Assembly (NCBI GenBank): GCA_903910555.1
Contig: CAIVZZ010000011.1
Location: 1-48,528, forward strand
From: an uncultured Gemmatimonadota bacterium
GTDB taxonomy: Bacteria > Gemmatimonadota > Gemmatimonadetes > Gemmatimonadales > Gemmatimonadaceae
Reading direction: 5' to 3'
Length of the DNA stretch: 48,528 bases
Within the stretch, counting starts at the first letter, position 1. Each line of letters starts with the position of its first letter. The position numbers and the translations under genes are program-made. Below, in pieces: positions 7,667 through 48,071 of the stretch. The notes beneath the pieces were generated by a model. That model was given only the letters and a program-made list of their open reading frames with translations. It was not told the DNA's origin and ran no database searches.

Positions 7667-10600
7667 TTAGAACGATTGCCCGATCGACCAATTCCAGTAG
7701 CCCACGCTGTTGAACGAGTCACGCGGAATCGCGTAGTCGATCTTCACAATGGCGATGCCGAACACGTTGATGCGGAAGCCGTATCCGAACGCGCGCAGCG
7801 GATAACGCATCGTCGTCGGATCGTAATTCGCCGGCTTGGTGAGGGTGACCGACTGGCCGCCCGTCCACGCCATGCCCGCGTCGTAGAAGAACTCGCCGTC
7901 GACCGGCGGCATCGTAATCGGCAGGAACCCGAGGTCGAAGCGCCGGATCAATGGGAAGCGGAGCTCGATGCTTGCAGCGGCGGTACGGCTGCCCAGCAGC
8001 TGCGCAGACGAGCAACTCGACGCGCCCGCAAATGCCGCCGCGCCGCCTGCCGCCGGCGCGCCGCAATTTGCCGACGAGTTTGCCTCGCGGTCGTAGCCGC
8101 GTATGTAGTTCGGAGAGTACGGATTCGCGAGATACTGTGGGAATAGCGTCTCGCCGCTGCCGACATTCACGTTCGCGTAGAGGTGCGTCGCGACCGTGAG
8201 GTAGCTGAAGATCAGCGCATCGTAGCGCCGGAGATCGGCGATGTAGCTCATCCAATTCTGCGTACCGACGTTCGTCCCGATTTCATAGCGATAGCGATGG
8301 CCGTAGATCCCCGAGCCGGTGCCGTTGAACAGCGCATTGTCGGAGACGTACGCTGCGTAGGGCGACGCGTAGTCGAACGAGCCGGTCCCCTTAACGCTGT
8401 CGACGTTGTAGCCCGTGGTGAAACCCGACGTGAGGTCGGCGATCTGGCTGACGAACTCAGCCGATTTGTCGATGTTCGTGAGCGCCGCGCCGATTTCGAA
8501 CCGCTCGAAACGGTTGCGCGGATAGATAGTCGAGAAGAACGCCGACCGGATGATGAAGCGGTCGATCTCCTCGGAGACCTGGTACTGGTTGTCCGCGAGA
8601 GCGGTCTGCCCGGCGTTGGCCAGGAAGAAGTACGGCTGCTGCTGGAAGCCGGCCGACCAGCTCAAACGTTTCGCGAGGCTGACGTAGTTCACGAAAACTT
8701 GCGCTTCGTCGATTCGGCCGTTGATCGCTGCGGCGGTGATCAACTGTTTGTTGCCGAGCAAGTCGCCGAAGATGATCGCCGTGCCGCCGAACACACCGCG
8801 TCCGTAATTGTTTTGTGCGTAGCCGATCTGTGGCTGCTGCACGGCTTCAGGGCGGAGTGTGGCTTTGTATGGTTCGTCCGTGAAGGTCGCCGGATTCGGC
8901 AGCGCGAGCGCGGAACTGTCGAGCAGCGCGGCTACTGACACGGCTGACTGCGCACCGGGCTGGCCCGCGGCCGGAAGTTCGCCGGAGGAGCGGAGTCCGG
9001 CGGGACCGCGATACACCGACACGCGGCGGCCATTGGTGGAATCAGGCGCTGCGGCGGCCACGGTCTGTTTGTTTTTCTCGGCTTCGTCGTGCGCGATTTG
9101 CTGCAATGCCGCCGCGGCGAGTGACGCGCGCTCCAGCGCGGAGTCGTTCGCCGTCATCTTCGACACGTAGACCTGCTTTGGCGGATCGCGATACGGATCT
9201 TTCTTCAGCTGGCGCGGATTCGCGAGCGACCAGATCGTGAAATCGTTGTTGTCCATGTAGGTGAACGCGATCTTGTCCGCCTGTCGCGCCCACGAAATGG
9301 CCGGGCTGTTCTCGGTCAGCGATTGCACACCGCCGATGAACTTCGTGATTTGGTAGTGTTCTTTTGCATCGAAATCGTAGATGAACAGCTGCGCGATACC
9401 CGTGCGATCGCTGATATACGCGAGTGATTTTCCGTCCGGCGCCCACTGCGGGTTGAGATTCTTGCCCGCCTGCCCGGGGATCACGTCGATGTTGCCCGTC
9501 TGCATGTCGAGCACGTTGATCTGCCACTTGCCGAACTTCAGCGTCTGGAAATCGGTGTTCGGCCCGCGGTCGCTGACGAACGCCACGCGGCGGCCATCGG
9601 GCGACCACACCGGCATCAGTGCTGCCCAATCGCCGGTGGTGATCTGCTGAAGGTTGCGGCCGTCAGAATCGATTCGATACAGATTCGTGAAGCCGCCCTT
9701 CGCGCCGCTGAACACGAGCTGCTTGCCGTCGGGCGACCAGGTCGGCGCGATCATCGACTCGAGGCCGGTGTCGAGACGGCGGAGCACCGTGAGGCTTTTC
9801 ACGTCCTCCAGGTAAATGACGTCCTTGCCGCCGGTCTGCGCCGTGAATGCCAGCGTGCGTCCGTCAGGCGAGAACGAGCTCTGCGAATAGATGTAGCGCA
9901 GCTCTTCGAACTCGGGATTGAGCGTGCTCGTCGTGAGGCGCTTGAGACGCTTGCCGGTGGTCGCGTCGGCGAGATACAAATCGAGAAACACTTCCGCGCG
10001 CAGCAGGCTGCCGCTGGAGATGTAGGCGATCTGGCGGCCGTCCGGCGAGAACGCGGGCGCGACGTACACTGGAATAATTCCGCCCGTACGCTTCGCGTTG
10101 AGCAGGGGCTGCGCGATCTTGCGCGGCCTGTCGAGGCTCGCGACCGCGGGGAGATATGTCGTCTGCATCGTCTCTTTCCACTCGTCGCCGAGTTCGGAAA
10201 GATCGAATCCCGTGTGCCGCTTGAATGCACGGTCGATGCCGAGCGTCGGCGACGCCGCGAGAATCTCGCCGATGATTTCATCGCCCCAGCGCTCGCCGAT
10301 GAATTTCCAGAACGACTCGCCGTACCGGTACGGGAAAAATACGTCCGGCCGTTCGGTCATCTGCTTCATCGACGGGATATTGCCGTTCAACGCGGCGTCG
10401 CGGATCACCGCGTCGGTCGCGGGATGATTGGGGCCGATCGAGAGGTATTCGGCCATGCCTTCCATGTACCAGCTCGGTGGTCCGTTCTGCACCAGCGACT
10501 GGACGGCGTTCCCGGAATGCCCGCGCGAATACACATCGAATTGGAATTGGTGCACCATTTCGTGCGTCATCACATGTTCGGTTTCCGCGAGATCCATTTC

Positions 10601-43058: not shown

Positions 43059-43508
43059 TTACCACGACTCGAATTTTCGGCCGGTGCGTTCTCTGATCCG
43101 CGTGAGCAGACCGATTAGCATGCGGCAGATTCGAGCGAGCCGCTCCAGGCGATCGGCGAACAGCGCCGTGTCATCCGCCGATCGAAGCAGGCGATACCAA
43201 GTCATGGCTTCGCGCGCTGAGCCGAGGGCGTAGGAAAAGAATCGCACGCGGTCGGCCGATGTTGGCCGTCCGTATCCCTCTGCGACGTTCGCCGCGATCG
43301 ATCCGACAGCGCGAACTAACTGTCCCTGTGCCTCCTCGTCCGCACCCGCGCGATCGAAGCGCCGGATGTCATCGCGCACCAACTCGACAAGGAAAAGCGC
43401 CTCTCGAAAGCAGTGCAGCCGCCAAATCGGATCACCCGTGACCGAATCGGGCTGCCGCGCCTCCCACTCCCTGATTGCCGTATCCGCGGCCGCCGTGTCA
43501 TTCGCCAT
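43059..43508 (-). CDS. Four-helix bundle protein (S23/IVS family)
   Basis: A 149-residue protein with the family core LVRAVGSIAANVAEGYGRPT and RFFSYALGSAREAMTWYRLL, preceded by a helix WRLHCFREALFLVELVRDD. The ATG at 43508 is chosen because codons upstream run into the inverted-repeat arm; a 41-residue extension from 43631 is formally open. No clear ribosome binding site. Compared with the first four-helix protein in the window it is quite different in sequence, so they are not a recent duplication. Confidence 0.85.
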   Translation of the reverse strand: MANDTAAADTAIREWEARQPDSVTGDPIWRLHCFREALFLVELVRDDIRRFDRAGADEEAQGQLVRAVGSIAANVAEGYGRPTSADRVRFFSYALGSAREAMTWYRLLRSADDTALFADRLERLARICRMLIGLLTRIRERTGRKFESW

Positions 43509-43587
43509 GCGAACAACTTGCCGTTCGGGCAGCCGAAAACCTTCACCAAATGTTTGCACAAGGAATCGATCGCTTGCCTTCGAGCGA

Positions 43588-43636
43588 CTCGCAAATCGCC
43601 ATGCACCAGATCGCCATTTACCAGTCGCCATTCGCC
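43588..43636. repeat. Right arm of inverted repeat (element 2)
   Basis: Reverse complement of 42987-43035 at about 46 of 49 positions. It lies 21 bases from the stop codon of the PQQ-dependent dehydrogenase. Confidence 0.88.
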
Positions 43637-45612: not shown

Positions 45613-46227
45613 TTACTGCCGTCCGCCGTCTGCCGTCCTAAACACCCCCGCCAAGACGCCGAGCACAACGTAGTCATCACCTTGCCCAAGCTCGAGATCC
45701 GCGCCCGCGCCCGGCGCCGCAAGATGCAGCGTGGCGCCTTGGCGCGTCATCGCCCGCACTAATACGGCGTTCGCGGCGCGAACGATGACGACGTCGCCGT
45801 CTTTGGCGCGCGACGACGGCCGCACCAACACGAGATCGCCGAGCTGCACGCCGTGCGCGGGTGCGGGCTCACGCGTCGCGCGCATCAGGAACGCATCGTC
45901 CGCGGGAACGAGCCGGCGGTCGAGCGTGATGTGATCTTCGGTGTGCAGCGCGGCGTGTCCCGACTCGGCGCGCATCACGGGAACTGGAATCGTCCCGGCA
46001 CCGCCGGCAAACCCGATGATGTTTACCCCGCGCGAACGCCCCGCCTCAAGCTCTACATAGCCCTTCTTCTCGAGCGCCGCGAGCAAATCCGTCACGGACT
46101 TGGTCGACGGAATCTTCAGCTGCTTCGCGATCTCGCGCACGCTCGGCTGGAACGTGTGCTCCGAGAGAAAGTCGAGCAGGAAGTGATAGACCTCCTGCTC
46201 GACCGGCGAGAGCGGCGCGCGCGTCAC
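45613..46227 (-). CDS. lexA: LexA-family repressor with a degenerate self-cleavage site
   Basis: A 204-residue protein with a LexA-type winged helix (PSVREIAKQLKIPSTKSVTDLL, split around residue 40) and a C-terminal S24-like domain (FLMRA, GVQLGDLVLVRPS, DGDVVIVR, YVVLGVLAGVFR). Aligned by eye to E. coli LexA, the catalytic Ser position (SGMSM) reads REPAP, the Lys (TVKR) reads LVRA, and the Ala-Gly cleavage pair reads ESG. It therefore probably binds DNA but cannot cleave itself. The C-terminal residues TADGGRQ are encoded by an intergenic-type repeat word. It overlaps gltX by 4 bases. Confidence 0.85.
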   Translation of the reverse strand: MTRAPLSPVEQEVYHFLLDFLSEHTFQPSVREIAKQLKIPSTKSVTDLLAALEKKGYVELEAGRSRGVNIIGFAGGAGTIPVPVMRAESGHAALHTEDHITLDRRLVPADDAFLMRATREPAPAHGVQLGDLVLVRPSSRAKDGDVVIVRAANAVLVRAMTRQGATLHLAAPGAGADLELGQGDDYVVLGVLAGVFRTADGGRQ

Positions 46228-47660
46228 GTGGCGAGCGCTGCCGCCTCTTTGAGTCGCTGCAGCGAAACATCGCGGCCGATCTGCACCAGCACTTCAAAAA
46301 TCCCCGGACTGACCGTGCTGCCAGTTACCGCGACGCGAATTGGCTGGAACACCTTTCCGGCTGCGAGGCCGTGCTTCTCGGCGACCGCACGCAGCGCGGC
46401 CTCCATCGCTTCCGGCGTCCAGCCGGTGAGCGCTTCAAGCGCGGTCGTCGAATCCGTAAGCAGCGCCTTCGTGACGGCGGCGTCTTTTCTCAAATGCGAG
46501 TCGACGAGCGCCGGGTCGATCGTGAACGGAAGCTTCGTGAAATATGGCCGGGCGAGCCGCGCGAGATCGTCCAGCGTGCGGCAGCGCTCTTTGACGAAGT
46601 CGAGGAGCTTGTAGAACTCCGGCGACGTTGCAGTCGGATCGTTCTCCGTGAGCAAACCCTCACGGATGAACGTCGCCATCGCGAGCGGTGCGAGCGCCTC
46701 CGCCGACAACCGCGACAGGTGCTGGCCGTTCATCCAGTCGAGTTTCTTGGTATCGAATACGGCGGCCTTCCGCAGCAGTCCCTTCTCGGAGAACAGCTGG
46801 ATCATTTCGTCCATCGACATCACTTCGCGGTCGCCGCCGGGACTCCAGCCGAGCAGGACCAGGAAGTTGTTCATCGCCTGGGGGAGAATGCCGAGGTGTT
46901 GATAGTCGCTGACCGCAGTCGCGCCGTGGCGCTTCGAAAGCTTTTTGCCGTCGAGCCCGTGGATCATCGGAAAATGCGCGAAGCGCGGAAGCTCGGCGCC
47001 AAGCGCGCGGTAGAGCTGAATCTGCTTTGGTGTGTTCGAGATGTGATCGTCGCCGCGCATCACGTGGGTGATGCGCATGGCGATATCGTCGGAGACGACG
47101 GCCATGTTGTAGATCGGCGTGCCGTCAGAGCGAAGAATCACGAAATCTTCGATGTCTTTGTTCGGAAAACTGATCGTCTCGTGAACGATGTCGTCCCATG
47201 AAGTTTCGCCTTCGGGTACGCGAAAGCGAATCACGAACGGCATGCCGTCCGCAACACGCTTGCTCACTTCGTCAGGCGCGAGACGATCGCAGCGGCGGTC
47301 GTACTTGAATGCCTCTTTGCTCGCTGCGGCGAGCTTGCGGCGCTGTTCGAGTTCCTCAGGCGTGCAGAAGCAGCGGTACGCGGCGCCGGCATCGAGCATC
47401 CGGCGCGCGTCTGCCTGATGGCGCGGGAGATTTGCGCCCTGATAGACGACGTCTTCGTCCCAGTTGAGGCCGAGCCAGTTCAGCCCGTCGAAAATCGCGC
47501 GGGTGGATTCGTCGGTGCTGCGGGCTTTATCCGTGTCTTCGATGCGCAGCAAAAACTGGCCGCCCTGCTGACGGGCGTAGAGCCAGTTGAACAAGGCGGT
47601 GCGGGCACCGCCGACGTGGAGATAACCGGTGGGGCTGGGGGCAAAACGGACTCTTACCAC
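46224..47660 (-). CDS. gltX: Glutamate--tRNA ligase
   Basis: GltX charges tRNA-Glu (and in some bacteria tRNA-Gln for transamidation). About 478 residues. Class I signatures are FAPSPTGYLHVGGA at the N-terminus (HIGH-like) and DGKKLSKRHGA (KMSKS-like). LLRIEDTD and GDDHISNTPKQIQLYRALG are also typical. The GTG at 47660 starts right before the conserved first strand; the frame is open 18 codons further, but those codons are a GATGCGG-type repeat. The end overlaps lexA by 4 bases, an unusual pairing. Confidence 0.96.
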   Translation of the reverse strand: MVRVRFAPSPTGYLHVGGARTALFNWLYARQQGGQFLLRIEDTDKARSTDESTRAIFDGLNWLGLNWDEDVVYQGANLPRHQADARRMLDAGAAYRCFCTPEELEQRRKLAAASKEAFKYDRRCDRLAPDEVSKRVADGMPFVIRFRVPEGETSWDDIVHETISFPNKDIEDFVILRSDGTPIYNMAVVSDDIAMRITHVMRGDDHISNTPKQIQLYRALGAELPRFAHFPMIHGLDGKKLSKRHGATAVSDYQHLGILPQAMNNFLVLLGWSPGGDREVMSMDEMIQLFSEKGLLRKAAVFDTKKLDWMNGQHLSRLSAEALAPLAMATFIREGLLTENDPTATSPEFYKLLDFVKERCRTLDDLARLARPYFTKLPFTIDPALVDSHLRKDAAVTKALLTDSTTALEALTGWTPEAMEAALRAVAEKHGLAAGKVFQPIRVAVTGSTVSPGIFEVLVQIGRDVSLQRLKEAAALAT

Positions 47661-47742
47661 GTGATGCGGGATGCGGGGTTGGGATGCGTGATGCGGGACA
47701 GTGCGATGCGACATCCGGGCGAGAACAGAAACGGGAGACGCA

Positions 47743-47871: not shown

Positions 47872-47960
47872 CCACGATCTGAGCAGAGTAAGGTAGCGTC
47901 AGGCGGGAGGTTGTGGGAGTGCAATTTTCGAGTATCGAGTCTTGAGTCTAGGGTCTGTGG

Positions 47961-48025
47961 TCTAGCGTCTGAAAACCCGCAGTACGCAGTTGTGAACTGC
48001 AAACTGCGGGTTCTCAGACGCTAGA
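47961..48025. repeat. Near-perfect 65-bp palindrome
   Basis: Arms of 31 bases beginning TCTAGCGTCTGA, with about 3 mismatches and a 3-base centre (GTG). It stands alone between the two tRNA-Ser genes. Weaker symmetry continues outward in GTCTTGAGTCTAG-like words. There is no T-tract; function unknown. Confidence 0.85.
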
Positions 48026-48071
48026 TACAAGACTCCAGACACAGACTGTCACGTGTATCGCCAGCATCCTA

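Follow-up and report, generated by a model that had tools for sequence, protein, structure and literature searches.

LexA2, a gltX-linked LexA paralogue of Gemmatimonadaceae without Ser-Lys dyad and Ala-Gly cleavage pair: a probable repressor outside RecA control

Ordinary LexA is a one-way switch, the self-cleavage of which is triggered by RecA filaments. A non-cleavable LexA is described for the cyanobacterium Synechocystis sp. PCC 6803, where the Ala-Gly pair is changed to Gly-Gly and the catalytic Ser119 to Asp; according to the cited passages this protein is thought not to regulate the SOS response, and a gradual control by modification has been suggested (PMC3091678, PMC7567884; also PMC13416735). 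Second LexA proteins are described as well. Leptospira interrogans has two lexA genes (PMC3789691), a model of LexA duplication with diverged motifs has been presented (PMC8565304), and Deinococcus radiodurans contains two LexA homologues, with recA not being under their control (PMC8072749). A search of the open-access literature returned no paper dealing with LexA in this phylum, and the hits naming the phylum looked incidental.

The gene described here lies in a window of 48,528 nucleotides, i.e., the whole stretch of DNA analysed, from an uncultured bacterium of the Gemmatimonadaceae. It belongs to a subfamily of LexA paralogues linked to gltX, for which we coined the label LexA2 (gene lexA2). 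As in the LexA of Synechocystis, as far as it is described in the cited passages, both the cleavage pair and the catalytic Ser are replaced and the DNA-binding domain is kept. However, window LexA2 also lacks the Lys, its gene has a fixed place next to gltX, and within genera intact LexA2 orthologues occur alongside degenerate ones. The parallel to the non-cleavable cyanobacterial LexA had already been drawn in a sequence-only reading of the window; it holds for the loss, but not for the setting of a sole LexA (the setting of PMC7567884 as interpreted here), since an intact LexA coexists in the window genome. The chemistry of the loss is the one known from Synechocystis; the setting, with an intact LexA alongside and the gene still intact in near relatives, is a different one. 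Similar to the duplicated LexA pairs in the cited sources, LexA2 would be a second LexA having a DNA specificity of its own, and it resembles the pair of D. radiodurans in that two LexA homologues are present and in not controlling recA. Duplicated LexAs elsewhere are discussed in these sources as SOS regulators or as candidates to take SOS over, whereas LexA2 appears to lose cleavage repeatedly and the primary LexA to keep SOS.

The window protein matches the Pfam families LexA_DNA_bind (PF01726, 1.9e-15) and Peptidase_S24 (PF00717, 2e-6, 27.9 bits versus a cut-off of 23.3) above cut-off, and with 106.4 bits it lies just below the cut-off of the NCBIfam lexA model (TIGR00498, 110.95). An AlphaFold2 model, calculated from an alignment of window LexA2 and 59 relatives, predicts a LexA fold with confidence (mean pLDDT 91, pTM 0.86), and superposes on LexA structures with both domains (Foldseek and VIA-align; Table 1). 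The intact DNA-binding domain and the coupling to gltX, both noted in the sequence-only reading, hold.

Table 1. Features of lexA2 and its upstream partner in the window.
Feature	Position	Strand	Basis
lexA2, LexA paralogue lacking the Ser-Lys dyad and the Ala-Gly cleavage pair	45613..46227	-	204 aa, GTG start; Pfam, NCBIfam, ortholog alignment, AlphaFold2 model
N-terminal winged-helix DNA-binding domain, residues 1-72	46012..46227	-	Pfam LexA_DNA_bind; model versus LexA DNA-binding domain 1lea: Z 12.2, rmsd 1.4 over 70 residues
Recognition helix, residues 42-54, TKSVTDLLAALEK, Ser41 just before	46066..46104	-	helix H42-54 in model; column counts (core near-invariant across subfamily)
S24-fold C-terminal domain, residues 79-198, catalytically degenerate	45634..45993	-	Pfam Peptidase_S24; model versus LexA C-domain 1jhc: Z 14.9, rmsd 2.3 over 122 residues
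Cleavage-site region RAESG, residues 86-90, without Ala-Gly	45958..45972	-	alignment with orthologues
Pro121, position of catalytic Ser (E. coli Ser119)	45865..45867	-	alignment with orthologues
Arg158, position of catalytic Lys (E. coli Lys156)	45754..45756	-	alignment with orthologues
GTGA common to gltX stop and lexA2 start, 4 bp overlap	46224..46227	-	putative translational coupling
gltX, glutamate--tRNA ligase, upstream partner conserved across class	46224..47714	-	TIGR00464, 541 bits; neighbourhood comparison

Alignment with the intact orthologues confirms the catalytic and cleavage-site losses, which had first been called by eye: Pro takes the place of the catalytic Ser, Arg that of the Lys, and the cleavage region holds no Ala-Gly. 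A different gap placement giving a Ser and a Lys was sought as well, but none is possible. Past residue 75, Ser is present only at 89, 138, and 139 and Lys only at 142, and in 49/49 intact orthologues Ser and Lys are 36, 37, or 39 residues apart and Ala and Ser 35. The sole Ser/Thr-Lys pair of window LexA2 that is spaced by 30-45 residues, Thr101-Lys142 (41), is off the active-site position. Since the only Lys of the C-terminal domain has no Ser within a suitable distance, no gap choice restores the dyad. Ala-Gly pairs are found at 62, 74, 77, 174, and 193, i.e., in the linker and near the C-terminus, and the alternative cleavage pair Cys-Gly is absent, as the protein has no Cys at all. In the E. 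coli LexA mutants S119A, G85D, and K156A (PDB 1jhh, 1jhf, 1jhe) the same positions are changed and the fold is kept; in window LexA2, however, the changes are natural and all three elements are lost. This loss is not particular to the window genome, but recurs across the class, in which intact orthologues are still present.

By genome search, LexA2 was found in 98/118 genomes of the family, the 20 without it including all seven of g4 and all five of g21, and gltX lies directly upstream on the same strand in 97/97 family loci with a readable upstream side. Among the matches listed for 246 genomes of the class, LexA2 is also present in the families f4, f5, f6, and f9, and the matches of f2, f7, and f8 score like canonical LexA, so that LexA2 is not distinguishable there. 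At 33 of the 40 loci fetched from other families, gltX is located at most 330 bp upstream; of the others, two show a match that is weaker or farther away (L335, L350) and five have none in the stretch. At two loci of f4 a tRNA-Gln (CTG) predicted by ARAGORN apparently lies between gltX and lexA2 (L332:461-533, L357:2880-2954). Of six genomes from another class of the phylum, five had matches scoring at the level of canonical LexA and the sixth had none; one of the five, G003, also contains two short matches to S24 only, open frames of 143-155 aa (L373, L374). In a scan of named genomes, the 80 of 225 relatives listed are almost exclusively MAGs of Gemmatimonadaceae/Gemmatimonadetes, and Roseisolibacter sp. 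H3M3-2 is also among them. The region of the recognition helix reads I-x-S-T-K-[T/S]-V in LexA2, the window protein included, versus Y-N-S-L-A-T-V in canonical LexA.

A second LexA of the cleavable type was sought in the window genome (3.2 Mb in 32 contigs, completeness given as 100%) and is present: the one other LexA (C18:68928-69527, 207.7 bits) has Ala-Gly, Ser, and Lys all in place (VAAG, GNSM, TVKR) and is 26% identical to window LexA2. An operator upstream of recA was sought, too. The direct repeat TTCG-N7-TTCG precedes recA in 23/23 and canonical lexA in 21/21 cases, the own genome included, with block-shuffle means of 0.24 and 0.16, respectively, although the shuffles of our motif tests, mononucleotide or 2-mer block, are weak controls. 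Several copies precede canonical lexA (own lexA at L134 ~8770-8840, own recA at L165). The repeat was found in 0/63 gltX-lexA2 spacers of at least 50 bp, and there is no copy in the 146 bp upstream of the own gltX of the window genome. Because it is placed before recA and lexA, TTCG-N7-TTCG can be assumed to be the SOS box of the family; its geometry resembles that of the alphaproteobacterial GTTC-N7-GTTC quoted in PMC8565304. In two family genomes the recA matches are split in two pieces (L185 and L187 in G086, L186 and L188 in G168), which may reflect a frameshift or an assembly error.

The 138 LexA2 proteins comprise 49 with Ala-Gly, Ser, and Lys, 74 without all three, and 15 mixed ones; L127, the second piece of a split gene, was left out before the counts, and L126 for the spacers. 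The Ala-Gly state depends on the alignment where the loop is shortened, and Ser and Lys are the safer columns. Intact proteins account for 39/98 in f1, 9/9 in f6, 0/18 in f5, 0/6 in f9, and 1/7 in f4, the last one (L328 of G283, matched only from model position 42) being counted as intact f4 but doubtful, as it looks like a Gemmatimonadaceae protein from a mixed bin. The intact orthologues reside at the same locus (L063 and others, and L274 of Roseisolibacter). Both states or part-states occur in the genera g7, g8, g13, g20, and g23, and g13 harbors intermediates with Ser and Lys but without Ala-Gly, with Ser only, and with all three gone. As a LexA2 tree could group by shared decay, gltX was chosen as independent marker (the spurious match L335 was removed from all gltX trees except one earlier tree). 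The minimum numbers of changes on the gltX tree (125 rows) are 14 for Ser, 14 for Lys, 15 for Ala-Gly, and 12 for Ser-and-Lys, and counted as irreversible losses Ser/Lys would have been lost on 15-16 occasions, according to the root, and the single traits on 18-21; all these counts are approximate, because the tree was built quickly and many of its nodes are weak. They suggest that the loss of Ser/Lys happened many times independently. A coupled loss of Ser, Lys, and Ala-Gly was rejected as a claim: the counts are striking, but with so few independent starred pairs they do not reach significance (Ser versus Lys: 4.7 the same way, 1.0 opposite, median p 0.22).

The spacer between gltX and lexA2 has a median of 110 bp in 38 intact versus 9 bp in 50 fully lost cases (Mann-Whitney p 3e-7), and the genes overlap by 4 bp at 6/8 loci of g1, the window genus. 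In most members of the window genus the own promoter region of lexA2 is gone and the gene rides on gltX. As a correlate of the loss the short spacer was nevertheless rejected, as the independent pairs on the gltX tree gave 0.2 the same way and 5.8 without difference, and the non-cleavers of f5 and f9 keep long spacers. Short spacers go back to a few clades, chiefly g1, g2, g9, g10, and part of g12, and the disappearance of the spacer promoter follows clade and is not independently repeated. A palindrome EM search on 41 spacers led to TGTACG-N4-CGTACA upstream of intact orthologues. It is present in 7/17 genera whose switch is completely or largely intact (300 2-mer block shuffles gave 1.3 on average and 6 at most, none reaching 7) and in only 1/10 non-cleaving genera having a spacer, and may be the old LexA2 operator. 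When 12 genomes were scanned for the exact core, the result was uneven against the reversed control and clearly exceeded it in G254 and G158 only. Both exact GTACG-N4-CGTAC sites of the window genome sit within apparent coding sequence, and this search gave no operator for the window lineage. The spacers of f5, f6, f9, and f4 mostly contain promoter-like elements (CACATTAGGATAGC in f5, GTTGAC in f6) or tRNA, and a shared operator was rejected there.

We consider it likely that lexA2 is an old LexA paralogue in this class, situated downstream of gltX, and that in the window lineage it now encodes a constitutively active DNA-binding repressor no longer subject to RecA. The ancestral LexA2 would have been a self-cleaving repressor with its own DNA specificity that became fixed downstream of gltX. 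The window lineage, like many others independently, lost cleavage site and dyad and kept the DNA-binding domain and the predicted S24 fold. With the switch lost and these domains kept, window LexA2 is most likely a dimeric DNA-binding repressor that cannot be removed by activated RecA, and since the own promoter region is gone, its level in the window lineage is presumably set by the gltX operon. Thus, we infer that window LexA2 is non-cleavable, dimerizes, binds DNA, represses, and is translationally coupled to gltX. It would be a standing repressor, the dose of which follows gltX expression, and it presumably regulates something other than SOS, which would be run by the separate canonical LexA.

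LexA2 might still be switched by proteolysis, by an IrrE/ImmA-type metalloprotease, by canonical LexA in trans, or by Clp/Lon. DdrO, which is cleaved by IrrE according to the cited part of PMC8072749, is a precedent, and Clp/Lon-type turnover is possible for any protein. However, the genome has no Peptidase_M78 above cut-off, the one sub-threshold piece reaching E 0.0026 and 18.8 versus 22 bits, and the scissile pair is gone, so that trans-cleavage by canonical LexA would have no target. We therefore regard such a switch as unlikely.

It appears quite improbable, too, that lexA2 is a decaying paralogue on its way to loss by slow pseudogenization and without present function. Such a decay is suggested by g4 and g21, which lack lexA2 and nest inside a non-cleaving clade (set of 20 rows without those of f5 and f9, support 96*); at the loci read in these two genera no lexA2 remnant was found, and gltX is soon followed by an opposite-strand open frame. 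Moreover, the C-domain is relaxed in several lineages, with dN/dS (NG86) up to ~0.44. In the 65-70% gltX identity bin, mean identities are 0.65 (DNA-binding domain) and 0.41 (C-terminal domain) in the lost set versus 0.75 and 0.64 in the intact set. After the loss both domains thus change faster at matched gltX divergence, the C-domain most, and as this includes the DNA-binding domain, the DNA specificity may drift. Against the decay stands the window protein itself. Compared with L036, the closest of the relatives fetched after the genome search (90% identity), dN/dS is 0.088, i.e., about 0.09 in both domains (0.085 in the N-domain, 0.099 in the C-domain), and lexA2 of the window lineage is under purifying selection. 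Overall values range from 0.009 to 0.376 in eleven non-cleaving pairs and from 0.043 to 0.095 in eight intact ones, with 0.037 in a mixed one. A reading of lexA2 as pseudogene was therefore rejected because of the low dN/dS, and the non-cleaving orthologues extracted are open frames without stops. In the 77 proteins without both Ser and Lys, the Ser, Thr, and Val of the recognition helix are kept in 77/77 and the Lys of its STK in 73/77, the other four having Arg. This near-invariance in non-cleavers argues that selection acts most strictly on the DNA-reading surface. That LexA2 acts on the SOS regulon as heterodimer partner or modulator of canonical LexA is highly improbable, since despite the same predicted fold and the retained S24 domain both proteins share only 26% identity and differ in the recognition helix, and f2, f7, and f8 have, among the matches listed, canonical LexA without a recognizable lexA2.

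Beyond a constitutive repressor, it is conceivable, though rather a long shot, that LexA2 began as a second damage-switched repressor at gltX and that its S24 domain repeatedly became a reversible sensor or partner-binding domain, e.g., for glutamate or tRNA charging. If so, the same operators would be under the control of RecA in some genera and of metabolism in others. In the literature cited, as far as its passages go, the non-cleavable LexA is a peculiarity of a single cyanobacterium, whereas here it concerns one orthologous gene at one locus, which some species have in intact and their close relatives in degenerate form, with intermediates as in g13. LexA2 therefore offers a natural series for asking how the switch of a proteolytic repressor is lost, in which order, and what controls the repressor afterwards, with the canonical LexA of the same cells as internal control for the comparison.

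Two further observations concern other parts of the window. A free-standing ORF at 43059-43631 encodes a four-helix-bundle protein of the 23S rRNA intervening-sequence family and adjoins a PQQ-dehydrogenase-like gene. A long imperfect inverted repeat, seen by eye, is located at ~47930-48045 between two tRNA-Ser genes.
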